Assembly (NCBI RefSeq): GCF_001428895.1
Contig: NZ_LMJA01000006.1
Span: forward strand, 1 to 64,000
Length of the DNA: 64,000 bases
Source: Mycobacterium sp. Root265
Lineage (GTDB): Bacteria; Actinomycetota; Actinomycetes; Mycobacteriales; Mycobacteriaceae
Direction: 5' to 3'
The notes under the pieces are model-generated. The model ran no database searches and had not been told where the DNA came from. It saw only the letters and a program-made list of their open reading frames with translations. Below, in pieces: positions 50,038-63,783 of the stretch (position 1 is the first letter of the stretch; each line of letters opens with the position of its first letter). The translations under genes were made by a program, and so were the position numbers.

Positions 50038-50919
50038 ATGGATCGATGGATGGGTGAGCTCGCACCGCAGCTGCGCGCTCTGGAGGAGTTGGCGGCGCGC
50101 GGCGGGCACATGACGCGGGCCGCCGACAGCCTCGGTATCCCGCAGTCCTCGATGAGCAGGCGTATCCACGCGCTGGAAAAAACGCTGGGGCTTGCCCTGC
50201 TCGTCCAGGACGGCCGCACCGTGCGGCTGACGCCGGCCGCCGTCCGGCTCGCCGACCGGGCCCGAGATCCGCTGCACGCCCTGGAAGCCGCGGTCGAGGC
50301 CGTCGCCGGAGAGGCCGACGCCCATCACGGCATCGTGCGACTCGGATTCCCGCTGACCATGGGCTCGGGGCGGTTGCCGACCCTGATCGCGGAGTTCCAT
50401 CGTCGTGCGCCGAATATCCGGTTACAGATCAAGCAGGCGCACGGGTCGCAGCTGAGGGCCGACCTGAAATCCGGCGAGTTGGATGTCGCGGTGATGATTC
50501 CGGCGTCGGACGAGGTGCGCCACCACGTCATCGGGGTGCAGACGATCCTCGCCGTGCTGCCGGCGAAGCACCGTCTCGCGGGGCGCAAGAGGTTGCGCCT
50601 CAATGAGCTGCGCGACGAACCCTTCATCGCGAACCCGGTGAGCTACAACCTGCGCCAGTTGACCGAGACGTGGTGCGCAGCGGCGGGTTTCACCCCGCAG
50701 ATCGCCGTCGAGATCACCGAGTTCGCCACCATGCACGAGTTGATCGGCCGCGGCCTGGGCATCGCGCTGCTCCCCCATGACGAACGCAGCGCACCGAATA
50801 CCGTCGAGGTCGCGCTGACCCCCAACACCTACCATCGCGAGATCGCGCTGGCCTGGTCACCCACCGCCGTCACACCGGCGAGCCGGCGACTGCTCGCCTT
50901 CCTCCGCGAACAGTTCTGA
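50038..50919 (+). CDS. LysR-family transcriptional regulator
   Basis: A 293-residue regulator. The winged helix-turn-helix spans residues about 5-65 (ALEELAARGGHMTRAADSLG, then IPQSSMSRRIHALEKTLG), followed by the effector-binding domain with GIVRLGFPLTMGSGRLPTL and a late GRGLGIALLPHDE. It is divergent from mqo with 64 bp between start codons, the typical arrangement for a LysR protein controlling its neighbour. Its stop is three bases from the end of the exporter permease gene. Effector unknown; a C4-dicarboxylate would be logical for an mqo regulator. Confidence 0.92.
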   Translation: MDRWMGELAPQLRALEELAARGGHMTRAADSLGIPQSSMSRRIHALEKTLGLALLVQDGRTVRLTPAAVRLADRARDPLHALEAAVEAVAGEADAHHGIVRLGFPLTMGSGRLPTLIAEFHRRAPNIRLQIKQAHGSQLRADLKSGELDVAVMIPASDEVRHHVIGVQTILAVLPAKHRLAGRKRLRLNELRDEPFIANPVSYNLRQLTETWCAAAGFTPQIAVEITEFATMHELIGRGLGIALLPHDERSAPNTVEVALTPNTYHREIALAWSPTAVTPASRRLLAFLREQF

Positions 50920-50922
50920 GGA

Positions 50923-51747
50923 TCAGCGCGTCTCCGACCAACGGAAGACGGTGAGGCAGCCGATCAACCCCCCGATACTCCACGCCGCAAGCACGAAGAA
51001 AATCCGCCAGTGTTCCCAACTGCCTGCGGGTTCGATGGCGGCCATTTCGGGCGGCAGCAGCACCGACCTGAATCCCTGGGCCATCCACTTGACCGGGAAC
51101 AGCGAGCCGATCACCAGCATCCACGTGGGGAGCACCATGATCGGGACGTACGTGCCGGACACGAACTGCAGTCCCACCGCGGGACCATTCGTCAGGGCGG
51201 CGGCCGACACCGCACTGCTGGCGACGTTGCTGATGAGTACCCCGAGCAACGAACAGCTGATGACGCCCAGCAGGAACACCCAGGTCAGGGTGAACCAGCC
51301 GAAAACGTCGGTGGGCAGGCGGAGACCGAACGCGAGCACACCGACCACCAGCAGCAGCACGGCCTCGGCCAGACTGACCACGAGCACCAGCATGATCTTG
51401 CCGATGAAGTAGGACGTCGCCGTCGTGGGAGTTCCGTGCAGGCGGCGCAGGGCCCCGGTCTCCCGATCGGCCGCGATACTGATGCCCAGATTCACGAAGG
51501 ACGTCGACAGGATTCCGTAGGCGAGCATGCTGGCCGCGATCACCGCTCCGGTGCTGACGTTGCCGTAGGGCAGTTTCGCGGAGAAGATCGAGCCCAGAAG
51601 CAGACAGATCACCGCCGGCATCGAGAAGGTCAGTACCACCTGCTCGGGCCTGCGGTAGAACATCTTCAGTTCCGGGATGACCCGCGAGAATCCGATCCGC
51701 GCCACCGACGGGATCGGTGCCCGGGTGTGCTGGCCTACGGTACTCAC
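50923..51747 (-). CDS. ABC-2 type exporter permease (DrrB-like)
   Basis: A 274-residue membrane protein with six hydrophobic segments. The cytoplasmic amphipathic start (SRVIPELKMFYRRPEQVVLTF) and the ETGALRRLHGTPTTATSYFIGK elbow are typical of ABC-2 permeases such as DrrB. The GTG at 51747 overlaps the ATPase stop (GTGA). It is the last of six minus-strand genes that include a polyketide synthase, so export of that product is its likely role. Alternative: a general drug efflux pump. Confidence 0.88.
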   Translation of the reverse strand: MSTVGQHTRAPIPSVARIGFSRVIPELKMFYRRPEQVVLTFSMPAVICLLLGSIFSAKLPYGNVSTGAVIAASMLAYGILSTSFVNLGISIAADRETGALRRLHGTPTTATSYFIGKIMLVLVVSLAEAVLLLVVGVLAFGLRLPTDVFGWFTLTWVFLLGVISCSLLGVLISNVASSAVSAAALTNGPAVGLQFVSGTYVPIMVLPTWMLVIGSLFPVKWMAQGFRSVLLPPEMAAIEPAGSWEHWRIFFVLAAWSIGGLIGCLTVFRWSETR

Positions 51748-52595
51748 GAATGGCCGATCAGCTGGAGATAGGCATCTTCGAGGGTCGGGCGGGTCACCGT
51801 CAGGCGGTCGAGTTCGGCGTGACCACTGCTGAGCTGCCGGATCAGTTCGGTGGGCGTCGCCGTCCGTTCCACCCGTTCCCGGCCGTCCTCCATCCACCGG
51901 ACAGTCGCCGCGGTGTCGACGTGCTCGATCAGCCTGGCGGGCGAGTCCACGGCGACGACCGTCCCGGCTGCCACGACGGCGACACGGTCCGCCAGCGCGG
52001 CCGCCTCCTCCAGGTAGTGCGTCGTCATCACGATGGTGGTGCCGTCCGCTGCCAGCAATCTGATGAGTTCCCAGAACTGTTGCCGGGCTTCGGGATCGAA
52101 TCCGGTGGTCGGCTCGTCGAGGAACAGCAGCTCGGGCCGGCCGACGATGCCGAGGGCGACATCGAGGCGGCGGCGCTGACCGCCCGACAGCGTCCTGACC
52201 CTCGCCGCGGCGACAGATGCGAGGCCGACGAGATCCAGCACCTCTGCCGGGTCTCTGGCGCCGCCGTAGCAACTGCCGAACATCTGCACGGTTTCGCCGA
52301 CGGTGAGCATCCCGGCGTCGCTGACCTCCTGAAGAACGATGCCGACCCGTGCGCGCCAATGTCTGTCCGCGGTTCCCGGGTCCGCGCCGAGCACGCTCAC
52401 CTGGCCGGCATCACGCCTGCGGTTTCCCTCCAGGATCTCGACCGTCGTCGACTTGCCCGCGCCATTGGGGCCGAGGATCGCGAAGATCTCCCCGTATTCG
52501 ACATCGAGGTCGAGGTTCGCTACCGCCCGGAGGGTTCCGTAGGACTTGGACAAGCCGCGCACCTGTACCGCCCGGGACTGGGCCGCACCGCTCAC
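51744..52595 (-). CDS. ABC exporter ATP-binding protein (DrrA-like)
   Basis: A 283-residue ATPase: Walker A GPNGAGKST (residues about 43-51), signature LSGGQRRRLDVALGIV, Walker B LLFLDEPTTGFDP, and the H-loop MTTHYLEEA. This is the drug/lipid exporter type, with a C-terminal regulatory stretch (TVTRPTLEDAYLQL). ATG 52595 overlaps the polyketide synthase stop by four bases, so synthase and exporter are translationally coupled. Together with the permease it should form the pump for the polyketide product (inference from coupling). Confidence 0.92.
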   Translation of the reverse strand: MSGAAQSRAVQVRGLSKSYGTLRAVANLDLDVEYGEIFAILGPNGAGKSTTVEILEGNRRRDAGQVSVLGADPGTADRHWRARVGIVLQEVSDAGMLTVGETVQMFGSCYGGARDPAEVLDLVGLASVAAARVRTLSGGQRRRLDVALGIVGRPELLFLDEPTTGFDPEARQQFWELIRLLAADGTTIVMTTHYLEEAAALADRVAVVAAGTVVAVDSPARLIEHVDTAATVRWMEDGRERVERTATPTELIRQLSSGHAELDRLTVTRPTLEDAYLQLIGHS

Positions 52596-55500
52596 GGCTG
52601 CACCCTGCCGGCCTCCGGTTGGGTGTCCTCGGCCTCGATCTCCGCCAACAGCGCCCGCAATTCGGCCTCGGACAGATCGTCCAGCAGGGCGTCGACATCG
52701 TCATGCTCCACACCGGTCTCGTCGTCGGTCGCGTCCTCGACCACGACGGGCGCATCGCCGTGTATGGCGTGCAACTCGGTGAGTATCCGGTCGGACAGCG
52801 AGTTCACGCTGACGCCGCGCAAGATCTCCAGCACGGGCACGTCGATCGAGAAGGTCGCGTTGATGCGCACCCGGAACTCCATGGCCATCATCGAGTCCAG
52901 ACCGATATCGTCGAGCATCGCTGCGGGCTCGATATCGGTGGCGCTGCAATCGAACACATCGGCCACGACCTGTTGGACACGCTCGGAGATGAGGGCGGCC
53001 CGCCCGCCCTCCGGGGTCGCGGCCAGTAGGTCGAGAATCGAGGATCCCGAGGCGTCCGGTGCCGTGGCCGCATCGACGGATTCGAGCTCGCCGAACATCG
53101 CCGGTAGCGGTCCACCCATTCCTGCCTGGCGGGCCCGGTTCCAGTCGACGGTGATCGCCACGACAGTGGGCACCGTCTGCTTGATGAGCCTGTCGAGGAT
53201 CCGGGCCCCCACGGCGGGGGTGATGAGCTCGATTCCCCGCTGCGCGTAGACCTTCTCCAACTTGAGCTCCTCGACCATTCCCACCGACCACGGCCCCCAG
53301 CCGATGGTGAGGGCCGGCAGTCCCTGCCCGCGACGGTGGTGGGCAAAGGCGTCCAGGAACGCATTGGCCGCGGCGTAATTTCCCTGCCCCGGCGCGGCGA
53401 TCGTCGAACCGGCGGAACCGAACATGACGAAGAAGTCCAGGTTCTGACCCTCGAAGGCGTGGTGCAGCACCCTGGTGCCGATGATCTTCGGCGCGGTCAC
53501 CTTTGCGTAGTCGTCCTCGCTCATGTTGACCAACAGTTGATCACGCACCGAGCCTGCGGCATGGACGATGCCGCGCACGGGCCGGCCGCCGCGGGACAGA
53601 TGGTCGGCCAGCCAGCCGGTCACGTCGTCGGCGCTCGTGACATCGACACTGGCCGTGTCGATATGGGCGCCGAGCCGTTCGATCATCTGTAGTGCAGTGA
53701 CGGTCTCGAAGTGCGGATCTCCCTTGGTCAGCCCGGCCCACTGGGCTCTTGCCGGGATGGGAGTCCGCCCGAGCAGGGTGATGTGGCGGGCGCCGCGCTC
53801 CGCCAGATAGGTGGCCACGACCCGGCCCAGCGCACCCGCCCCGCCGGTGACCACGTACGTCGCATCGGCGGAGAGCTTCGTCGGGAAAGGATATGTCAGT
53901 TCCTTGCACAGCCGCAGGCGAGGAACGAACGTCTTCGCACCGCGGATCGCGATCTGATCCTCGCTCCCGCCACCGAGCACATGGTCGCTGATCCGCGTGG
54001 CGATCTCCGGGTGGCCATCGGCGTCGTCGATATCGACGAGCCCGCCCCAGTACCCGGAGAACTCCTGGTGTCCGATGACGCGGCCCAGGCCCCACATCGA
54101 GGCCTGATCCACACCGGTGAGGGGGGTGCCGGGCGTCGGCTGCGAATTGGCGGTCACCAGAAAGAGTCTGGGTGTGACGGTGTGCAGCTCGGCCAGCGTC
54201 TTCACCAGCCGAAGAACGGTGAAAGGACCGATCTCGTCGGAGTCGGCGCCGTCCGCCGACATGTCCAGCGGCCAGCAATCGATGATGCCGGCGAGGCCGC
54301 CGTCACCGGTGGTGTGCCTGTCGATCAGCGCACGCCAGTCGACGCCCCCGGCCGCGTGCCGCACGGTGTCGACGAGGTGACCGCGGGACCGCAACTCGTC
54401 GGCGAGTGCCTCCCCGACGCCGGACTCGTCGGCCAACACCAGCCAGCCTGCCGCTGCGGAGTCCGGCACGGCGACGGGATCCGCTGCGGTGTCCTCGATT
54501 TCGAACCACTGCAGTTCGTACAGCCCCTTGTCGATGTGCTCGACGGACATCCGGGAGGACGACGTCAACGATTGCACGGTGAACCCGTCGAAGACGGCGA
54601 GCACACCACCCTCCTGGTCGGTGATCGAGATATCGCACTCGACGGCGTCCCGGGTCGCCGACACCACGCGCACCTGCACCCGCATGTTTGGGGTGGGAGA
54701 TCCAAAGACCGCGCAGTGCCGGATACGGGTGGGCAGATACGGGTCTTCGTTCTCTTCCTGGCCGGAGAACGGTGCTCCGAAGAGCGTCTGGAAGGCTCCG
54801 TCGATGAGCGCCGGGTGGAACCGATATTCGCCGGCCTGGTCCGCGATGTCGGCGGGCATCGTCAACTCGGCGATCGCCCAGTCGTGACCGGCCGTCACCC
54901 CGGACACCGACCGGAAGGCCCGGCCGTAGTCGAACCCGAGGTCACTCGTCCGGCGGTAGAACTCGTCGCCATCCATCTCGGTCTGGGGCCCCTCCGCGGG
55001 GTTGCCGGCATCGGGCGGCACCGCCGCCAGGGTGCCGAGTTCGGCGGTCGCCGTGATCGCCCATTTCAGGTCACCGTCCGAGGTGGCCGTGAAGGAGGAG
55101 AATTCCAGCGTGCCGTCGTCCTTGTTGAGAGTGGTCCTGATGATCGGATCACAGGTGTCGTCCAGGATGACGGCACGGTGCAGCACGAGATTGTCGACGC
55201 TGTGGTCGGATCCGTAGGTTTCCCGTCCGGCGGCCATCGCCATCTCGACGTACACCGCGCCCGGCACCACCACGCTGCCCTGTATACGGTGATCGGCGAG
55301 GAATTGGTGGGTGGCGGTGCTGATCTCGGCCTCCCAGGTGGGATGCACGCCGCGAACCGGCTGACCGAGCAACGGATGCACCGGTCGGTAGAACAGGGCT
55401 TCGTCGATTTCGTGATTGTCGTGCCAGTAACGTTTGGTCTGCCACGGATAGCCGGGAATCTTCAGCAGGCGCGCATCGCCGCGGGGGTACAGGCGATCCC

Positions 55501-58093
55501 AGGCGATGTCGTGGCCGGTGTTGTGCAAGACCCCCAGGCAGTTCAGCAGCGTGCGCACGTCGTCGTCCTCACGACGCTGCGCCGCGGTCACCGAAACACG
55601 CTGGGTGCCGGCTATTTCCAGGATGGAAGCCGCCAGCACGGGGTGGGGCCCGAGCTCGATGAAGTGGGTGAAATCGTCGTCGAGCATCCGGCGCAGTGCC
55701 GGTTCGAAGAGAACGGTGGCACGGGTGTTCTGCCACCAGTAGGCCGCCCCCGCGTCATAACCGGTCAACAGTTCACCGGTGACCGTCGAATAGAGCGGCA
55801 ACTGTGCGGACTTCGACGACAGACCCGACAGCGCACCGTAGAGCTCATCCTTGATGGCGTCCATGTAGTGGGTGTGGTAGGGCACCTTGACGGCCAGGTA
55901 ACGGTTGAAGACCTGCGCCTCGTCCAGTTGGCGGGCAATGTCTTCCAGGACGTCGCCGTCGCCCGCGACGGTGACCGCGGAGGGACTGTTGATGGCGGCG
56001 ATCGACACCCGGCGACCGAATTCGTCGATCATCTTCTCGTCGAGCGTGCGTATGAGGGTGTCGGCGTCCAGGCCGACAGCCAGCATGCGACCCTGCCCGC
56101 TGGTGCGCTGTTGCAGGCGGCTGCGATGATGGATCACCTCGACGGCCTGCTCGAACGACAGCAGACCGGCCAGGTGGTGTGCTGCGACTTCGCCTGCGCT
56201 GTGGCCGATCACGGCGTCCGGAGTGATACCGAAGTGGGCGAGCTGCTCAGCGAGGGCCACCTGAATCGCGAAGTTGGCGGGCTGAGCGAACTCTGTTTCG
56301 TCCATCCGGGAACATGATTCGTCGCGTCGCAGCTCCTCGATCAGCGACCAGTCCGCGTACCTGGACAATTCCCGGGAGCTGCGCATGATGCTCTCGGTGA
56401 AGACAGGGAACACATCGAGCAATCCCCGGCACATCTTCCACCACTGCGGACCCATGCCGGTGCAGACGAAGGCGACCTTGGGCGGAGCGGAAGGGGTTCG
56501 GCCGGTTGTGATCTCACCGCCGTTGCCGACGGCCCGCAATTGTTCGCGCGCATCGACGGTGTCTTCGGCGATCAATGTGTGCCGGTGGCTGAGGTGCGCG
56601 CGCCGCTGGGCGAGGGTATAGCCGAGGTCGGACAACGCGATGTCGGGATGGCGGTCCAGGTGGTCGGCCAACCGAGCGGCCGCCGCCACCAGAGCCTGTT
56701 CGCTGCGCCCCGATATCGGCAGCACGGTCAGCGGCAGTGTTGCGCTGCCCCCAACGGGGTCCTGCCGCGCAGAGGGAGGTTCGGCAAGCACCACGTGGGC
56801 GTTGGTACCCCCGAAGCCGAACGAGTTGACCCCTGCCACCCGGCGCTCGGTGTCGGGGAACGGCCTTCCCGCGGACGGGATGTCGAGTTTGAGTTCGGTG
56901 ACCGAGACGTGCCTGGTGGGGTTCTTCAGATGCAGGTTGGCCGGCACGTACCCGTGCTTGACAACGAGCGCCGCCTTGATCAGCCCGGCCACTCCCGCCC
57001 CGGCTTCCAGATGACCGATGTTGGTTTTGACGGACCCGATCAACAGCGGTTGCGTCGCCGGTCGGTCGGAGGTGAGCGCTTGGGCCAGGGCCCGCATCTC
57101 GATGGGATCACCGACCGGCGTGCCGGTACCGTGCGCTTCCACGTACCCGATCTCGGCCGGCCCGACGCCGGCGCGATCCAGTGCCGTTCTGATCGCCGCT
57201 TCCTGCGCTTCTTCGCGGGGCACGGTGATGCCGTCGGTGTGCCCGTCCTGCGAGACGGCGGTACCGAGGATCTGTGCGTAGACATCGTCCCCGTCGGCCA
57301 GCGCCTGCGCCAACGGTTTGATGACGACGACGGCACCGCCCTCGCCCCGCGCGTAACCGTCCGCGGACTCGTCGAAGGCCTTGCTCCGCCCCTCGGGGCT
57401 GAGGAATCCGCTGCGCGATTCCGCGATGGCGGTATTGGGACCGAGCATCAGGTTGACACCACCGGCGAGTGCCACAGCGCATTCGCCGTTCCAGATGCTC
57501 TGCGCGGCAAGGTGCACAGCGACCAGCGAGCTCGAGCATGCCGTGTCGATCGTCATGCTCGGACCGCGGAAGTCGAACGCATGCGAGATGCGGTTCGCCA
57601 GCATCGTCATCATCATCCCGGTGGCCGAATGGGCCTTGAACTGATACCGGCTGCTGCGACCCTGGTTCTGCAGGAGCTGATAGTCGAGGGTGAAACCTCC
57701 GATGAACACACCGACGTCGGTACCCGCCAGTCGATCCACGGGTATCCCCCCGTCTTCGAACGCCTCCCAGGTCACCTCCAGCAGCAGACGTTGCTGGGGG
57801 TCGAGAGAGTGGGCCTCGCGCGGCGAGATACCGAAGAACTGGGGATCGAACTGATCGACCTCGGGCAGGAATCCGCCCCGCCGAGTGGCGACCTTGCCCA
57901 TTTTCGCCGGGTTGGGGTCGTGGTAGCGCGCGGCATCCCACCGTGACGCGGGAACCTCACCGGTCGCATCGACCTCATCGCACAGCAAGCGCCAAAAGGC
58001 CTCTGCCGAGTCGGCACCACCGGGGAATCTGCATCCGACTCCGACTATCGCGAGCGGTTCACGGTTACTGGGCAGTGGATCGGTCACAGTCAT
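52592..58093 (-). CDS. type I polyketide synthase, single module KS-AT-DH-KR-ACP
   Basis: An 1833-residue synthase (1835 from the alternative GTG 58099, used for numbering). Ketosynthase, residues 14-440: Cys188 in DTACSSS, His323, His363. Acyltransferase, 540-845: Ser634 in GHSAGEV; the selectivity segment reads PYHTH, neither the malonyl HAFH nor the methylmalonyl YASH form. Dehydratase, 905-1180: HxxxGxxxxP from His937 and DxxxQ from Asp1100. Ketoreductase, about 1200-1660: GGAGALG, Ser1562, Tyr1575, Asn1579. Carrier, 1700-1775: Ser1736. No enoylreductase or thioesterase. The C-terminus carries a DLSEAELRALLAEIE helix. Every active site is intact. One module alone suggests iterative use, in the style of 6-methylsalicylate synthases. 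Confidence 0.95.
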   Translation of the reverse strand: MTVTDPLPSNREPLAIVGVGCRFPGGADSAEAFWRLLCDEVDATGEVPASRWDAARYHDPNPAKMGKVATRRGGFLPEVDQFDPQFFGISPREAHSLDPQQRLLLEVTWEAFEDGGIPVDRLAGTDVGVFIGGFTLDYQLLQNQGRSSRYQFKAHSATGMMMTMLANRISHAFDFRGPSMTIDTACSSSLVAVHLAAQSIWNGECAVALAGGVNLMLGPNTAIAESRSGFLSPEGRSKAFDESADGYARGEGGAVVVIKPLAQALADGDDVYAQILGTAVSQDGHTDGITVPREEAQEAAIRTALDRAGVGPAEIGYVEAHGTGTPVGDPIEMRALAQALTSDRPATQPLLIGSVKTNIGHLEAGAGVAGLIKAALVVKHGYVPANLHLKNPTRHVSVTELKLDIPSAGRPFPDTERRVAGVNSFGFGGTNAHVVLAEPPSARQDPVGGSATLPLTVLPISGRSEQALVAAAARLADHLDRHPDIALSDLGYTLAQRRAHLSHRHTLIAEDTVDAREQLRAVGNGGEITTGRTPSAPPKVAFVCTGMGPQWWKMCRGLLDVFPVFTESIMRSSRELSRYADWSLIEELRRDESCSRMDETEFAQPANFAIQVALAEQLAHFGITPDAVIGHSAGEVAAHHLAGLLSFEQAVEVIHHRSRLQQRTSGQGRMLAVGLDADTLIRTLDEKMIDEFGRRVSIAAINSPSAVTVAGDGDVLEDIARQLDEAQVFNRYLAVKVPYHTHYMDAIKDELYGALSGLSSKSAQLPLYSTVTGELLTGYDAGAAYWWQNTRATVLFEPALRRMLDDDFTHFIELGPHPVLAASILEIAGTQRVSVTAAQRREDDDVRTLLNCLGVLHNTGHDIAWDRLYPRGDARLLKIPGYPWQTKRYWHDNHEIDEALFYRPVHPLLGQPVRGVHPTWEAEISTATHQFLADHRIQGSVVVPGAVYVEMAMAAGRETYGSDHSVDNLVLHRAVILDDTCDPIIRTTLNKDDGTLEFSSFTATSDGDLKWAITATAELGTLAAVPPDAGNPAEGPQTEMDGDEFYRRTSDLGFDYGRAFRSVSGVTAGHDWAIAELTMPADIADQAGEYRFHPALIDGAFQTLFGAPFSGQEENEDPYLPTRIRHCAVFGSPTPNMRVQVRVVSATRDAVECDISITDQEGGVLAVFDGFTVQSLTSSSRMSVEHIDKGLYELQWFEIEDTAADPVAVPDSAAAGWLVLADESGVGEALADELRSRGHLVDTVRHAAGGVDWRALIDRHTTGDGGLAGIIDCWPLDMSADGADSDEIGPFTVLRLVKTLAELHTVTPRLFLVTANSQPTPGTPLTGVDQASMWGLGRVIGHQEFSGYWGGLVDIDDADGHPEIATRISDHVLGGGSEDQIAIRGAKTFVPRLRLCKELTYPFPTKLSADATYVVTGGAGALGRVVATYLAERGARHITLLGRTPIPARAQWAGLTKGDPHFETVTALQMIERLGAHIDTASVDVTSADDVTGWLADHLSRGGRPVRGIVHAAGSVRDQLLVNMSEDDYAKVTAPKIIGTRVLHHAFEGQNLDFFVMFGSAGSTIAAPGQGNYAAANAFLDAFAHHRRGQGLPALTIGWGPWSVGMVEELKLEKVYAQRGIELITPAVGARILDRLIKQTVPTVVAITVDWNRARQAGMGGPLPAMFGELESVDAATAPDASGSSILDLLAATPEGGRAALISERVQQVVADVFDCSATDIEPAAMLDDIGLDSMMAMEFRVRINATFSIDVPVLEILRGVSVNSLSDRILTELHAIHGDAPVVVEDATDDETGVEHDDVDALLDDLSEAELRALLAEIEAEDTQPEAGRVQP

Positions 58094-58194
58094 CGGCACT
58101 TTCTCGTCGCGCTACACACTTCCCGAGGTATTCGTAGCCGCGGTCGCGACGGATGGGGTCCCGGACGGATGAATTTCGGCCAATGTTCGCGGGC

Positions 58195-59985
58195 TCAGCT
58201 CGGCTGCAAGACCGGCGATCCGGTGACGATCCAGTCGGAGCTGATCGGGTCGGCCTCCTGATCCCTGCGGTACGCCGCCCGCAACTCGCGCAACAGCGGA
58301 TCGCGCTGCCAGGCCTGGACCTGATGCATGGCCTCGTCGTCCTCGAACATCGTGGACTTCGCCGCGAGCACCGTCTCGACGAGCTGACCTGCAATCTGGT
58401 GCAGCAACCGAGCATTGGCGTCGAACTGGGCATCGAAGTTCGGACTGGGCTCCACCATCGCGGTGTGCAGCGACACCATGAAGTTCAACGGCGCGTACAA
58501 GTCCATGAACGGTACCGTCGCCAACTCGTTCGCGGGTCCACTGCCCTCCAACGCAGCCCACTCCCGGAAGAAACGCTGAATACGGTTGCTGAGCGCGATG
58601 AGACCTTCGAGCTGGGGGACGAACTCCGGGTCGTCGGTGATGCGGACGAACCGGTCGTTCATGTAGAGCAGGCCGATGAATCCCCAGTAGAAGGCGATGT
58701 CCCAGACGACCTTCGCCGACATCACCGCCGGGGTTCCCATCAGCACGTACTGGTCCTGGTACACGGCCAGCCACATCTCGGTGAGCGACCGGAACAGCGT
58801 GTCACTGACCTGCGCGCGGGCCACCACGTGCTCGCCGTTCAGGTCGCGGACGACCATGTCGGTGATCAGGCCGTTGCCGATCGCGACGAGGTCCAACCCG
58901 GATGAGTACAGCGGATCCAGGAACACACCGGCGTCACCGGTGAGGCACCAGCGGTCAGCACCGTCGAAGATCTTGCTGGCGCCATGGCTGTACTTCTTCA
59001 TGACCCGGAAGTCCTTGATCTGGTGCTCATGTTCGGCCAGCACCGCGTCGCACTGCGGTTCGTGTTCACCCAGCCACGCCCTGGCCTTGGGCAGCGTGTT
59101 GAACCCCTCGAACGGATGCAGAGCGGGGTCTGCGACGATACCCACGCTGGTGGCTCCGGAGCCCAGTCGGATCAGCCAGACCCAGTAGCCCTCCCCCATC
59201 AGATGGTTCGTCGACATGGCCCGATTGCCCTCCACGAGACGGCTGTGAAAGTCGGGGTCGTCGCTCCACCCATTGACATCGATCTCAGTGGCCACACGCA
59301 GCCATGCCGCATTGCAGTGATGCTCGTTGGGCTGTTTGAGGTTGAGTTGTCGGGGCAACACCCGGTTACGGCCAGACGCGTCGACCACCCACCTGACCGT
59401 GGTGTCCGCGCGGTGTTGATCGGTCTGAATGGACACCGTGTGGGAGCTGTCGTCACCGCCGAGGGCGACGGAGGCGACGCGACCGCGCCGGATGTCGACA
59501 CCCGCTGCCAGACAACGGGTGTGCAACTCGTTCTCCAGTCGTCCCCGATCGATCTGATAGGTGACCAGGGGGACGAACGACGAACCGCCGAGCTCCATCC
59601 GGGACGCGATGTCGCTGTTGCGCCCGTGCGAGAAGAACATCCGCAGACCCATCTTGCGGATGTGGGCGGTGCTCAGGTGTTCGCCCAAGCCCAGCCGGTC
59701 ACGCAGGTAGTGCGCGGACACCTCGACCGTCGATTCACCGACGGTGTGGGTGATCTCCGGCACCGGATGGGTGTTCGGCTCGATGATCAGGATGCGGGTG
59801 TGCGGACGCGCGTTCCTGATTTCCAGCGCCAGGGCCATGGCGGCGATGCCACCACCGGCGATCGCGACATCGTGATCGGTCGACGGGGCATCGGCGGTGG
59901 GCAGCTGGCTTCTGATCTTTCGTGCGAGGGCCGCCCGGGCCTGCGCATCGAGTCGCGAGAGTTGGGGCCGCATGCATTTCAACAT
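58195..59985 (-). CDS. FAD-dependent halogenase-like monooxygenase
   Basis: A 596-residue flavoenzyme related to flavin-dependent halogenases. FAD loop AIAGGGIAAMALALEI near residue 43; VGESTVEVS near 83 (the halogenase GES/T region); VVDASGRNRVLP near 202; and GDAGVFLDPLYSSGLDL, the FxDPxxSxG motif. The halogenase fingerprint WxWxIP appears as WVWLIR near 270, with Arg in place of Pro. It may therefore be a halogenase variant, a hydroxylase or a dehydrogenase. It lies 100 bp upstream of the polyketide synthase in the same direction. Start ATG 59985 is chosen; GTG 59991 and ATG 59973 are alternatives. Confidence 0.8.
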   Translation of the reverse strand: MLKCMRPQLSRLDAQARAALARKIRSQLPTADAPSTDHDVAIAGGGIAAMALALEIRNARPHTRILIIEPNTHPVPEITHTVGESTVEVSAHYLRDRLGLGEHLSTAHIRKMGLRMFFSHGRNSDIASRMELGGSSFVPLVTYQIDRGRLENELHTRCLAAGVDIRRGRVASVALGGDDSSHTVSIQTDQHRADTTVRWVVDASGRNRVLPRQLNLKQPNEHHCNAAWLRVATEIDVNGWSDDPDFHSRLVEGNRAMSTNHLMGEGYWVWLIRLGSGATSVGIVADPALHPFEGFNTLPKARAWLGEHEPQCDAVLAEHEHQIKDFRVMKKYSHGASKIFDGADRWCLTGDAGVFLDPLYSSGLDLVAIGNGLITDMVVRDLNGEHVVARAQVSDTLFRSLTEMWLAVYQDQYVLMGTPAVMSAKVVWDIAFYWGFIGLLYMNDRFVRITDDPEFVPQLEGLIALSNRIQRFFREWAALEGSGPANELATVPFMDLYAPLNFMVSLHTAMVEPSPNFDAQFDANARLLHQIAGQLVETVLAAKSTMFEDDEAMHQVQAWQRDPLLRELRAAYRRDQEADPISSDWIVTGSPVLQPS

Positions 59986-60035
59986 ACCCACAACGGGCGG
60001 GGTTCAGACCCTGAAACAACAGGCAACGGTCCGCG

Positions 60036-61283
60036 CTACGCGGCCTCGGAAAGCTGGCGATGTCGTCCGTAGACCCATTCGAAGATCGGTGATGTCATGA
60101 GGGTGGTGACCACGGCCACCAGCACCAGGATGGTGAACAAGGTGGGCGTGATGATCCCCGCCTCCAGACCGATGTTGAGCAGGATCAGCTCGATCAGGCC
60201 GCGCGCGTTCATCAGTGCGCCCAATGCCACCGACTCGCGCATGGGGACTTTGCTGAGCCGTGCCGCCACCGCGCATGCCACGCCCTTTCCCACGACGGCG
60301 ACGACGATCAGACCCAGCGTCACCCCCCACAGCGCCGGGGAGTTCACCAGACCGATCTGCGTGTTCAGACCCGAATAGACGAAGAACAGCGGCAGCAGCA
60401 GCTTCGTGGTGAGGGGCTCCAGCTTGTCGGTGAGATCGGTGGCGAACAATCCCGACGGCATGGCGACGCCGAGAATGAAGGCGCCGAAGATCGCGTAGAT
60501 GCCGATGACATCGGTGAACCATGCGCAGGCCATGAGCAGGATCAACACGGTGCTGAGCATCGACGGCGTTACGGCCCGGTTGTCGTCGGCCATCCGGCCC
60601 AACGAACTCAGGCCACGGCGACCGATCGTCAGCAGAACCACGGTGTAGAGCAGACCACCACCGATCGCGACGACGGCCAGCATCGGGCTGCTGCGGTGGA
60701 TGGCCAGCACGGCGGCCAGGATGCACCACGAGATGGCGTCGGCCGTCGCGCCGCACGCCAGCGCCAAGGTGCCCAAAGACGTTCCGGTCAGCTTCTTTTC
60801 GAAGATGATCCGGGCAAGCATCGGGAATGCGGTGATCGCGATCGACGCGCCGAGGAACATCATCGCCATACCGAGGTTGACGCCGTCACCGAAGAAACCA
60901 CCGGCGCCCAGCAGCGGTATTGCGGCCAGCGCGCCGACGGCCAATGGTGCGACCGTTCCGGTGATGGACACGGCGGCCGCGGTGCCGGCCCGCTGCCTGA
61001 CGTGATCGACGTCGAAATTCAATCCGATGATGAACATGTAGAGCACCAGCCCGACCTGCGCCGCGGTGTAGAGCACCAGGTTCGACGTTCCGGTCGGGAA
61101 CAGGTCGCTCTGCAGTTCGGGGGCCATCCGGCCAAGAAGGGAAGGCCCCAGCACGACGCCGGCGATCATCTCACCGACGACCTGCGGCTGACCCACCCGC
61201 TGAGCGGCCAGTCCGGCGAGCTTGCACGCCGCGAGAATGACGGTCAGCTGGAGGAAAAAGTGGATCGCGGTTTCCGCGGGCAT
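60036..61283 (-). CDS. monovalent cation/proton antiporter, CPA2 (KefB/NapA-like)
   Basis: A 415-residue membrane protein with about twelve helices and no C-terminal nucleotide-binding domain. GLAAQRVGQPQVVGEMIAGVVLGPSLLG (residues about 25-52) is the CPA2 opening, and MARGLIE-like NARGLIELILLNIG near residue 355 is the second half's hallmark. At the ion-binding helix the usual Asp-Asp reads Ala-Asp (GATADAISW), a pattern seen in electroneutral exchangers. It sits 50 bp upstream of the flavoenzyme gene in the same direction. It could supply ion homeostasis or product-linked transport; its link to the cluster is by position only. Confidence 0.85.
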   Translation of the reverse strand: MPAETAIHFFLQLTVILAACKLAGLAAQRVGQPQVVGEMIAGVVLGPSLLGRMAPELQSDLFPTGTSNLVLYTAAQVGLVLYMFIIGLNFDVDHVRQRAGTAAAVSITGTVAPLAVGALAAIPLLGAGGFFGDGVNLGMAMMFLGASIAITAFPMLARIIFEKKLTGTSLGTLALACGATADAISWCILAAVLAIHRSSPMLAVVAIGGGLLYTVVLLTIGRRGLSSLGRMADDNRAVTPSMLSTVLILLMACAWFTDVIGIYAIFGAFILGVAMPSGLFATDLTDKLEPLTTKLLLPLFFVYSGLNTQIGLVNSPALWGVTLGLIVVAVVGKGVACAVAARLSKVPMRESVALGALMNARGLIELILLNIGLEAGIITPTLFTILVLVAVVTTLMTSPIFEWVYGRHRQLSEAA

Positions 61284-61328
61284 GCGTCAGTTAACCAGTC
61301 GGTCCGGACTTCCTGCTCGAAGTGGGTG

Positions 61329-62087
61329 TCAACGCGGCACGTTCGCGGTCAGGGTGGCCAGCGCCGCCGTGGTCAGGTCCGCGAGCTCGGCCGCCTCGTC
61401 CACGTCCAGCGCGGCACTCACGAGTTCGGCCATCCGGCGGTTGGTGGCCTGCTCGATCTCGACGTAGCGGTCCTTCTTGTCCGCGCCGTCCGCGAAGGGC
61501 TGGGGCCAGCCGAACATGGCCGCGTATCGCGGGCCCTTGTTGAGCATGTGTGCCTCGATGGGGCTGACGCCCGACAGACTGAGCGCATTGAAGTGCAGTC
61601 CGGCGCGAAGCTCCCGCAGCACGAACATCACCTGCAGTGCCCGGGCGGGCGCATCGTCGGCCAGTGGCATGGTCCGCCAGCCGGCGAACAACGGCGATGC
61701 CGCAATCGGCGCCACCGCAATGAGCTTCTCCCCCAATGCCGCAATACGGTCCAGCCCGTCCGCGCCGGCCAGATACTTACGTCCGAACTCGGCGGCCTGA
61801 TCCCAATACACCTGCGATGCACCGGCGGCGCCGCGCACGGCGACGCCTTCCTCCCACATGGCCGAAAGGCCGGCGGGTTCGAAGACGGCGAACACCGCGC
61901 TGACGGTCGCACCGGTCACCTCACCGAGCACGCCACCGCGGCCGGCCACGTATCCGGCCAGGGGGTTCTGATAGCCGGCGGCGACGCTCTCGCCGTAGGT
62001 CTGTGGGTGCAGCATGAAGACTGCCACCGCCTGTTCGATGGCGCCTCCCGCAGTGGCGGTCGCTTCGACCAGATCCGTGTTGCTCAT
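61329..62087 (-). CDS. SCO6745-family protein
   Basis: A 252-residue helical protein. The pattern MLHPQTYGESVAAGYQNPLAGYVAGRGGVLGEVTG (key G-Y-x-A-x-R-x-x-x-L-G near residues 45-55) followed by FxVFEPA is that of the SCO6745 (EvbL) family: small proteins of unknown function, often near secondary-metabolism or redox genes. No membrane segment or signal peptide. It is the first gene of the six-gene minus-strand run and is divergent from the HNH gene, with 178 bp between. Function unknown; a small-molecule-binding or tailoring role is possible. Confidence 0.7.
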   Translation of the reverse strand: MSNTDLVEATATAGGAIEQAVAVFMLHPQTYGESVAAGYQNPLAGYVAGRGGVLGEVTGATVSAVFAVFEPAGLSAMWEEGVAVRGAAGASQVYWDQAAEFGRKYLAGADGLDRIAALGEKLIAVAPIAASPLFAGWRTMPLADDAPARALQVMFVLRELRAGLHFNALSLSGVSPIEAHMLNKGPRYAAMFGWPQPFADGADKKDRYVEIEQATNRRMAELVSAALDVDEAAELADLTTAALATLTANVPR

Positions 62088-62180
62088 GGACCGACCCTAG
62101 CGTCTGCCGATTGCGCCGCGGCTGCAACAGCGCGTTCGGTATGAAAGTGCCCACCTCTCAGCGACTTTCGAGCGACAGGT

Positions 62181-62235
62181 GAGTCCCAAAAATTTCTTTG
62201 GACTCATTAATCACGGCCGTCACTTTTCGTGACGG
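62181..62235. repeat. two adjacent hairpins in the polyketide-cluster/HNH divergent region
   Basis: First hairpin 62181-62205: GAGTCC(C)AAA pairs with TTTGGACTC around a 6-nt loop, with one bulged C. Second, 62217-62235: CCGTCAC pairs perfectly with GTGACGG around TTTTC. They lie 106-148 bp before the SCO6745 start on one strand and end 31 bp before the HNH start on the other. They may be operators or leader structures; the AT-rich core is unusual locally. Confidence 0.6.
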
Positions 62236-62246
62236 ATTGTCGGTGA

Positions 62247-62262
62247 TCGCACGTATGTTCGA
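62247..62262. promoter_or_regulatory. LexA (SOS) box over the HNH gene promoter
   Basis: TCGCAC-GTAT-GTTCGA matches the mycobacterial SOS box TCGAAC-N4-GTTCGA at 11 of 12 fixed positions. A -10 element TATGTT (62254-62259) lies inside it and is six bases before ATG 62266, giving a leaderless transcript. LexA bound here would block RNA polymerase directly. Several 13E12-family genes of M. tuberculosis are reported to be LexA-regulated (from memory). Confidence 0.75.
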
Positions 62263-62265
62263 CGT

Positions 62266-63783
62266 ATGAACGGTGACGTGGTCGGTGGTCGGGAGGCGGT
62301 GCAGCACGCACTCTCCGATCGCGCCGCGTCGCTCAAGGCACTGCTGGACGCCGACTTCACCGTCTTCGACACCGCGGAGTTGCTCGGACTGTTGTCCGAG
62401 CGGGAGCAGTACGCCCGCGCCGACGCAGCGGTCGATCACCGCATCCTGGCCGCCCTGATGGATCGGGCCACCCCGCACGAGATCGGCGGGAAATCCTGGA
62501 ACGACGTACTGGCCACCCGGGACGCGTTGAACGGGGAGGTGTTGGAGCCGCTGCTACCCGCATGCGCTCACGCGTTGGCGACGGGGTCCATCAACACCGC
62601 CCACATCACAGTCATCCGGTCCGCACTCAAGCAGGCCTCGCGATATCTCGACGCCGGCGAGCGAGCCCAGATGGAGGCCACCCTGGTCGCGGTCGCCGAA
62701 GCCAATACCCCCGAGACGCTGGCCGAGCTCGCCGACCAGATGGTCTACGTGCTCAACCAGAACGGCGACAGCCCGGACCTGACGCGGCACAAGGTAGGGC
62801 TCACCATCGGCAAGCCCGATGTGGATGGATTGTCGAAAGTGTCGGGGCGGGTGGATTCGGAGTTCGCGGCCTACCTGCGCACCATCCTGGACGTGTGGGC
62901 GCGGCCGGGGATTAACAACCCCGACGACGCGGAACCCCAGCACAATCCGCAACCAAATCCATTGGAAGAACGGGCCGAACCCGCGGCCGACACTGAACCA
63001 GCGCCCGATCCAACACCGGAACCCGAACCCGCACCCGAACCTGCAATTGAGCCTGCGCCCGAATCGGAGCCTGCCGAGGAGCGCCCACTTCCACGCGACT
63101 TCGGCGAGCTCGCCGACCTCGCCGACACCCTCCCACCACCGATCAAGCGCGACCTGGAACCGCCGGCCGGTGATCACCGCACCCAAGCCCAGCGCAACCA
63201 CGACGCCATCAAAGCGGTCCTGCGCGACACCCTGATGTCCAAGCGCCTCGGCCAACACAACGGGCTACCGGTCACCGTGGTGGTCTCCACCACGCTGGCC
63301 GAGTTGGAGGCCGGTGCCGGGATCGCGGTCACCGGCTCCGGAACCCGCATGCCCATGCGGGATCTGATCCGCCTCGCCGAGCACGCCCACCACTATCTGA
63401 TCGTCTACCGCCACCACACCGCCGAACCGCTCTACCTGGGCCGCACCAAACGCCTGGCCACCAAAGCCCAACGGCTACTGCTCTACAACCGCGACCGTGG
63501 CTGCACCCGCCCCGGCTGCACCAAAGGCGCCTGTCACTGCCAGGCCCATCACGCCCACCCCAGCTGGCACCACGGCGGGCTCACCGACGCCCCCGACCTC
63601 GCACTCGGCTGCGGACCGGACAACCGGCTCGCCGAACTGGGCTGGACCAACAGCATCGACCCCCGCACCGGCCGCGTGCACTGGCACCCACCACCACTCA
63701 TGGACACCGGCGGCGACACCCTCAACCACCACTTCCACCCCGAAGAACTCCTCCCACCACCCGAGGAGGACGACGATGGCTGA
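62266..63783 (+). CDS. DUF222 / 13E12-family HNH endonuclease-like protein
   Basis: A 505-residue protein. DUF222 covers about residues 20-215 (TAELLGLLSEREQYARADAAVD; later QMEATLVAVAEANTPETLAELAD). Residues about 222-268 are a Glu-Pro-rich spacer with EPAP/EPEP repeats. A second conserved part follows, then an HNH core CTRPGCTKGACHCQAHHAHP and HHGGLTDAPDLALGCGPDNRL near 410-455, with metal-binding cysteines and the HH pair. The family is a multicopy repeat of mycobacteria and may be mobile or host for insertions. It probably cuts or nicks DNA; target unknown. Its stop is one base from the convergent stress-protein gene. Confidence 0.9.
   Translation: MNGDVVGGREAVQHALSDRAASLKALLDADFTVFDTAELLGLLSEREQYARADAAVDHRILAALMDRATPHEIGGKSWNDVLATRDALNGEVLEPLLPACAHALATGSINTAHITVIRSALKQASRYLDAGERAQMEATLVAVAEANTPETLAELADQMVYVLNQNGDSPDLTRHKVGLTIGKPDVDGLSKVSGRVDSEFAAYLRTILDVWARPGINNPDDAEPQHNPQPNPLEERAEPAADTEPAPDPTPEPEPAPEPAIEPAPESEPAEERPLPRDFGELADLADTLPPPIKRDLEPPAGDHRTQAQRNHDAIKAVLRDTLMSKRLGQHNGLPVTVVVSTTLAELEAGAGIAVTGSGTRMPMRDLIRLAEHAHHYLIVYRHHTAEPLYLGRTKRLATKAQRLLLYNRDRGCTRPGCTKGACHCQAHHAHPSWHHGGLTDAPDLALGCGPDNRLAELGWTNSIDPRTGRVHWHPPPLMDTGGDTLNHHFHPEELLPPPEEDDDG

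Follow-up and report, generated by a model that had tools for sequence, protein, structure and literature searches.

A widespread mycobacterial gene unit with a single-module polyketide synthase, a halogenase-like flavoenzyme, an ABC exporter and an antiporter

Introduction

Clusters for polycyclic tetramate macrolactams (PTMs; HSAF, ikarugamycin, frontalamide) carry a polyketide synthase (PKS) whose single KS-AT-DH-KR-ACP module is used iteratively. PTM synthases make polyene chains, according to PMC11724479, and PMC5705629 describes the phytoene-desaturase-like 'DH1' as universally conserved in PTM clusters. The bacterial iterative ketosynthase (KS) classes recognised by NaPDoS2 are aromatic, PTM, enediyne and polyunsaturated fatty acid, with more being found (PMC9582728). 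Here we analyze a PKS with the same module in a 64,000-nucleotide stretch of Mycobacterium sp. Root265 (contig NZ_LMJA01000006.1, positions 1 to 64,000; hereafter the window), together with the genes beside it: a halogenase-like flavoenzyme, a CPA2 antiporter and a two-gene ABC exporter. Envelope lipids are the best-known products of mycobacterial PKSs. The original prediction, made from the letters of the window, read these genes and an SCO6745-family gene (50923..62087) as a biosynthetic cluster; the product is most likely an exported, oxidised or halogenated polyene.

The unit differs from PTM clusters in what accompanies the common module. Its PKS ends after the ACP, where the ABC genes follow, and is without C-A-PCP-TE. 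The unit is also without the phytoene-desaturase-like cyclase, the alcohol dehydrogenase and the sterol desaturase, no phytoene-desaturase-like gene being present among the window cluster genes (Pfam) or the widely shared neighbours; it has instead the flavoenzyme, the antiporter and the exporter. PTM is the nearest labelled KS class in our tree, and the AT motif VPYH is common to both.

Enediyne PKS (PKSE) clusters contain DUF1702 (PF08012), a family also found in non-mycobacterial relatives of this cluster. In PKSE, however, KR comes before DH, whereas DH precedes KR here; the PKSE KSs stand on a branch of 2.6 changes, and the window unit has no UnbU/UnbV-type genes (Pfam). We rejected an enediyne reading because the KS is far away. 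The DrrAB and Mtu_efflux exporters likewise consist of an overlapping ATPase and ABC-2 permease beside a PKS, but they accompany a different PKS class, and the NCBIfam scores here lie below the cut-offs (drrA, 230.5 bits for the ATPase against 312.45; drrB, 43.9 against 223.05).

Results

A unit conserved in order and strand

A five-gene biosynthetic unit, comprising the antiporter, the flavoenzyme, the PKS and the two-gene ABC exporter, is widespread in mycobacteria. The flavoenzyme is present in 56 of 198 genus genomes drawn evenly, or 53 of the 185 of good quality. A scan of species genomes yielded 79 loci (L numbers) from the best 80 of 129 confirmed candidates, with weaker relatives missing; 74 are of mycobacterial type, the remainder being L080 (Rhodococcus), L085 (Pseudonocardiaceae), L096 (Nocardia), L097 (Lentzea) and L099 (Deltaproteobacteria-labelled). 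At least 7.7 kb follow the flavoenzyme in 67 of the 74, and in all 67 the flavoenzyme, PKS, ATPase and permease lie in one order on one strand. The prediction of a biosynthetic unit with an adjoining exporter is supported, and the orthologues are neighbours in other genomes as well.

Predicted-gene clustering of 73 loci (without L098) placed the antiporter in 69, the PKS in 68, the flavoenzyme in 56, the permease in 47 and the ATPase in 45. The lower counts reflect a crude gene finder, as tblastn detects these genes in every locus that is long enough. The next neighbour families are short antisense open reading frames in 12, 9, 8 and 8 loci, the largest lying antisense to the flavoenzyme, and the remainder reach at most 7 loci. 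Because only five families are widely common to the loci, the unit has sharp edges and differing neighbours.

The SCO6745-family gene, originally counted with the unit, is a local neighbour: it occurs in 4 of the 74 loci, the close relatives L021-L024, and we rejected it as a member. One of these, L023 (M. neoaurum ATCC 25795), has orthologues of all six genes in the same order. Given how well the four-gene core and the antiporter are conserved between species, chance is an unlikely explanation for them, though not for SCO6745.

Mycolicibacterium frederiksbergense LB 501T is the closest relative among the loci compared (flavoenzyme 90% identical), although very near records may have been left out. 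No description of this cluster was found in the open-licence PMC papers searched, in line with the earlier view that it is not a recognised mycobacterial locus; the genome paper for the strain of locus L071 names cluster types only (PMC6797536). Two contigs from metagenome-assembled genomes, L028 (Ilumatobacteraceae label) and L057 (Acidobacteria label), carry the mycobacterial cluster, with flavoenzyme identities of 74% and 69%, and are probably mis-binned.

One antiporter per locus

The antiporter was rightly placed in the unit by the original prediction, which missed that in mycobacteria it is a partner both constant and exchangeable. In sixty loci the sequence includes more than 4.5 kb ahead of the flavoenzyme and 9 kb or more beyond it, and each of the 60 contains exactly one antiporter: type B (at least 65% identical to the window antiporter) in 38, type A (below 55%, in practice about 43%) in 22, both in 0 and neither in 0. 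Over all 74 loci, 46 have type B and 25 type A, while three show no match (L081, L087 and L098, whose contigs end close by). Type B antiporters are encoded upstream (38 on the same strand, 8 on the opposite one) and type A antiporters downstream, directly after the permease and on the same strand in 25/25. The Root265 genome has five Na_H_Exchanger genes; at 20 kb each over 6.67 Mb, a chance antiporter within 10 kb is expected at about 1.5% per locus.

Three type A proteins are 73-77% identical to antiporters of the Nocardia-genus, Lentzea and Pseudonocardiaceae clusters; for this reason, type A looks ancestral and type B appears to have replaced it. A quick flavoenzyme tree of 70 labelled rows requires a minimum of five changes of antiporter type. 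These rows represent 69 of the 74 loci and the window, with two outgroup rows besides; sequences with a stop, below 550 residues or without a CPA2 match were excluded. A gene that is exchanged yet not lost may serve the self-protection of the producer. CPA2 systems of the KefB/C type acidify the cytoplasm, protecting against electrophiles. The window antiporter matches the KefB/KefC models weakly, and Pfam detected no regulatory domain in it.

The flavoenzyme and its altered motifs

The flavoenzyme, FAD1, belongs by sequence to the family of the halogenases CmlS, PltA and ChlB4. Its matches to profile models are weak: it exceeds the Pfam Trp_halogenase cut-off (41.8 bits against 21) but reaches 61.6 bits of the 900 required by the NCBIfam CmlS model. 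Its best PDB match is the flavoprotein/dehydrogenase entry 3nix (7.5e-18), followed by ChlB4 (2.6e-14) and PltA (1.2e-11). K113, aligned with the second lysine of ChlB4 KKYG and invariant in 27 aligned sequences, occupies what we take to be the position of the catalytic lysine of flavin-dependent halogenases. WxW is kept, but WxWxIP of the known halogenases is replaced by WxWxIR (WVWLIR) in the window protein and in all but one of 93 mycobacterial rows (92 of 93). Some species are counted twice among these rows, as part of L002-L020 comes from genomes that also supplied loci of the species scan; the last position of GxGxxG is A in 82 of the 93. WxWxIR also occurs in FAD1 of L080 (WVWIIR), L085, L097, L113 and L118. 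In the Nocardia L096 flavoenzyme the halogenase motif persists as WLWLIP, and in the second and third paralogues compared it persists as WVWLIP.

The predicted halogenase-like flavoenzyme is present, but with WxWxIP changed in almost every orthologue the halogenation that was proposed as one possibility is in doubt. FAD1 could be either an oxygenase or a halogenase whose tunnel has changed. It is unlikely to be redox-inactive or a reductive partner, for example one replacing an enoylreductase (ER), in which case the product would be a plain polyene or a partly reduced acid. The altered WxWxIR and GxGxxG motifs and the 3nix match favour such a role, but K113 and WxW are retained also in Janthinobacterium, Gloeothece and Deltaproteobacteria-labelled homologues, and paralogues of the same family keep WxWxIP.

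The last 40 residues of the PKS have a mean net charge of -9.9 (range -15 to -2, n=72), and a 32-residue N-terminal stretch of the flavoenzyme, beginning at most 45 residues before the FAD motif, has a mean charge of +2.8 (range -1 to 7, n=62). Five of the PKS rows are non-mycobacterial (L080, L085, L114, L116 and L119, with L080 and L116 probably from a single genome), and FAD2 is represented at least once among the flavoenzyme rows (L119). These opposite charges suggest that the flavoenzyme may act on the ACP-bound chain.

The polyketide synthase and its KS position

Pfam orders the PKS domains as KS, AT, DH, KR and ACP and detects neither ER nor thioesterase (TE). The active-site strings DTACSSS, EAHGTGT, KTNIGH, GHSAG, HRIQGSVVVP, HPALID, TGGAGALG, GNYAAA and GLDSM are intact, so domains and motifs agree with the synthase as first described. 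Among 72 PKS rows, EAHGTGT and KTNIGH occur in 72, GHSxG in 71 and DTACSSS in 59, the other 13 being without the exact string. The AT motif, which bears on AT specificity, reads VPYHTHYM in the window PKS, VPYHSPGM and VPYHSAAM in two PTM ATs, and HAFHSPRM in the modular ATs of L127; it resembles the former and not the latter.

KS relationships were examined in a first, quick tree of 56 rows and in a careful tree cut to 33, from which seven mycobacterial orthologues, all Janthinobacterium, Rhizobium and Azospirillum rows, OWN136, OWN138 and some Nostoc and modular rows were left out. The Eleftheria PKS (L102), its KS split over two frames, was excluded from the comparison. In the 33-row tree, the long branches of OWN137 and of the enediyne rows join each other. 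The window KS falls in one clade (support 99/96) with the KSs of mycobacterial, Rhodococcus and Pseudonocardiaceae PKSs and of G744 and G827. A Tsukamurella plasmid PKS is next out (94/92), followed by a group in which two PTM PKSs stand with one from Xenorhabdus (82/89); adding the Nocardia highly reducing (HR)-type PKSs gives 95/91. The quick tree shows a similar picture, with a Rhizobium row near the group and forks of 86-94. PTM is therefore the nearest labelled class with moderate support, the Tsukamurella sister coming first and the group also holding the Xenorhabdus and Nocardia HR-type KSs. Of the two PTM references, L104 was verified as KS-AT-DH-KR-ACP-C-A-PCP-TE, and L128 has a sterol desaturase, an adenylation-bearing PKS, two FAD oxidoreductases and a P450. 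The Tsukamurella tyrosinosolvens plasmid locus (L103) carries a PKS (two frames in the record), a C-A-reductase nonribosomal peptide synthetase, an ABC pair and a flavin-dependent oxidoreductase.

Approximately unbiased (AU) tests reject joining the focal KS clade with all five own-genome KSs (p 2e-6), the bimodular PKS (7e-6), the Pks2-type PKS (0.010) or Pks13 plus an unnamed PKS (0.026), names being those given by NCBIfam; the sets were chosen after the first tree, three further own-genome KSs (L136-L138) lie outside the tests, and the two mild p-values involve long branches. Trees and tests agree that the KS does not cluster with the Pks2-type, Pks13, unnamed or bimodular PKSs of its own genome. 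The original preference for an iterative over a lipid synthase stands as far as this separation goes, and the nearest known iterative class in the tree is the PTM-type polyene PKS.

An aromatic iterative PKS (6-methylsalicylate, orsellinate or naphthoate type), with partial use of KR and DH, a cyclised chain and a phenol halogenated by the flavoenzyme in chlorothricin-like fashion, is a reading to which we give little credence. Bacterial aromatic iterative PKSs have the same domain order, and ChlB4 and PltA, both among the PDB matches, have aromatic substrates. The KS, however, is nearer to PTM than to modular PKSs, in a tree without a labelled aromatic KS, and the altered WxWxIP speaks against phenol halogenation. 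A cell-envelope lipid, with the PKS extending a fatty acyl starter and the ABC pair exporting the lipid as DrrABC exports phthiocerol dimycocerosates, is quite improbable: the mycobacterial host, the DrrAB-like exporter and mycocerosic acid synthase as the best-scoring solved relative of the whole PKS argue for it, but the AU tests with the Pks2-type, Pks13-containing and bimodular sets, the lack of an ER, and the five widely shared families, in which no ligase or acyltransferase family was recognised, argue against it.

Layout of the locus

All six predicted genes lie on the minus strand at the coordinates first assigned to them (Table 1). Intergenic gaps measure 45 bp (SCO6745/antiporter), 44 bp (antiporter/flavoenzyme) and 95 bp (flavoenzyme/PKS), and PKS/ATPase and ATPase/permease each overlap by 4 bp. 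For the permease, the GTG at 51747 gives 274 residues and this overlap; a longer open frame to 52359 (ABC2_membrane, 77 bits) was rejected in its favour. The predicted arrangement of short gaps, with the last three genes overlapping, agrees with these coordinates and this start.

Table 1. Features of the locus in the window
Feature	Position	Strand	Basis or remark
LysR regulator, convergent with the permease	50038..50919	+	At the boundary; may regulate locally
ABC-2 type permease, exporter membrane part, 274 aa	50923..51747	-	GTG start; ABC2_membrane
ABC transporter ATPase, DrrA-like, 283 aa	51744..52595	-	Pfam, NCBIfam
Type I PKS, single module KS-AT-DH-KR-ACP, 1835 aa, acidic C-terminal tail	52592..58099	-	Pfam
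Halogenase-like flavoenzyme FAD1, 598 aa	58195..59991	-	Pfam, motifs
CPA2 cation:proton antiporter, type B, 415 aa	60036..61283	-	Pfam, NCBIfam
SCO6745-family HTH protein	61329..62087	-	NCBIfam; local neighbour, not core
Divergent intergenic region SCO6745/DUF222 gene, 178 bp	62088..62265		Candidate promoter region

The SCO6745 protein scores above its NCBIfam cut-off (152.1 bits against 120). A LysR copy, 74-86% identical, occurs in L021-L023 only. The divergent DUF222 gene (62266-63783, plus strand) has similar genes in L021 (68%) and L023 (61%). G+C is 0.64-0.67 in the cluster and 0.67-0.71 to its left, with little sign of foreign origin; the genome assembly is in 30 contigs. No promoter consensus site was found in the divergent intergenic region, and neither promoter-like nor terminator-like sites exceeded the numbers in shuffles (for terminators, 2 weak ones against 4.6 expected).

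Relatives outside mycobacteria

In Rhodococcus L080, DUF1702, FAD1, FAD2, a TE and the PKS are accompanied by an antiporter some 8 kb upstream. Four DUF1702 matches occur in Pseudonocardiaceae L085 and G827, together with FAD1-FAD3, a TE, the PKS, a ferredoxin and an antiporter of type A. The G744 cluster, split between two contigs, resembles these and has its antiporter (39%) on the opposite strand; Lentzea L097 and Nocardia L096 are alike on cut contigs. Across L080, L085, L096, L097, L113-L114 and L118-L119, we observed one to four DUF1702 matches and two to three halogenase-like flavoenzymes, and no PKSE was seen; where the contig reaches, the KS is of the focal clade. DUF1702 gave no match in the Root265 genome, in a search whose controls were also without a match, while the same Pfam model matches L080 and L085.

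The FAD1 proteins of the non-mycobacterial and mycobacterial clusters group together (97/98), with FAD2 and FAD3 outside, and the paralogues therefore split earlier. Because both FAD1 and the KS of Rhodococcus group with the mycobacterial clade (100/100, without resolution inside), the trees suggest that the ABC pair may have been gained in mycobacteria, and FAD2, TE and DUF1702 lost. Alternatively, FAD2, TE and DUF1702 may have been gained in the non-mycobacterial lineages.

In the Nocardia-genus loci L120, L121 and L150-L167, a set without two further listed places in G880 and G889, a related halogenase-like flavoenzyme adjoins a fungal-like HR single-module PKS in 20/20. This PKS reads KS-AT-DH-MT-ER-KR-ACP-TE, including a C-methyltransferase, by Pfam on L121 only and by tblastn for the others. 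An antiporter lies within the flanks compared in 10 of the 20, and we rejected it as a universal partner of the whole flavoenzyme family. On a Janthinobacterium lividum plasmid (L100), an antiporter, flavoenzyme, Asp/Asn hydroxylase, hydrolase and PKS stand in a row with a phosphopantetheinyl transferase upstream. The flavoenzyme-antiporter pairing extends to Proteobacteria, though that antiporter is only about 26% identical.

Discussion

We hold, with somewhat more belief than doubt, that the unit makes and exports an oxidised or halogenated polyene through an iterative PKS while the antiporter protects the producer. From gene order, domain content, active-site strings, conservation and KS position we infer the following steps. 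The single module would be used repeatedly with malonyl-CoA, KR and DH acting in each round without an ER, and would leave a conjugated polyenoyl thioester on the ACP. The flavoenzyme would oxidise or halogenate the bound polyene, perhaps tethered by its N-terminal stretch to the acidic PKS tail. A thioesterase or acceptor encoded elsewhere may release the chain, as the TE gene of the relatives lies outside the conserved mycobacterial unit. The product would then leave through the DrrAB-like ABC pair, and the CPA2 antiporter may shield the producer, via cytoplasmic pH or potassium, against an electrophilic or ion-leaking product.

Several observations weigh against this proposal. Iteration is deduced from a single module without partner modules, and the moderately supported group that ties the KS to PTM includes a Xenorhabdus PKS without a known product. 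WxWxIR and the changed GxGxxG weaken the halogenase identity. The charge pattern is a sequence feature, the flavoenzyme stretch reaches -1, and acidic tails are common in PKSs. The count of antiporter changes comes from weak forks and could be lower, and half of the Nocardia loci, with a related flavoenzyme and a different PKS, have no antiporter in the flanks compared. At the level of transcription, no promoter-like sites were found on the minus strand of the cluster, and one of the two weak terminator-like sites falls at the antiporter/flavoenzyme junction.

A bolder reading, tentative and more doubted than believed, derives the unit, by reduction and with an exporter, from a broader actinobacterial pathway in which a PTM-like polyene would pass to two or three halogenase-like flavoenzymes and DUF1702 outside PKSE clusters; the product would be a reactive polyene (halogenated, epoxidised or dehydrogenated) and the CPA2 antiporter a dedicated self-immunity. 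Were this true, both the compound class and the immunity principle would be unreported. The link to DUF1702 clusters places a protein family previously associated with enediyne biosynthesis in another setting as well, and the one-antiporter rule offers a direct handle on the effect of the product on cells. If the proposed polyene pathway is correct, a conserved and self-contained route to a secreted metabolite would be present in 56 of the 198 sampled genomes of the genus.

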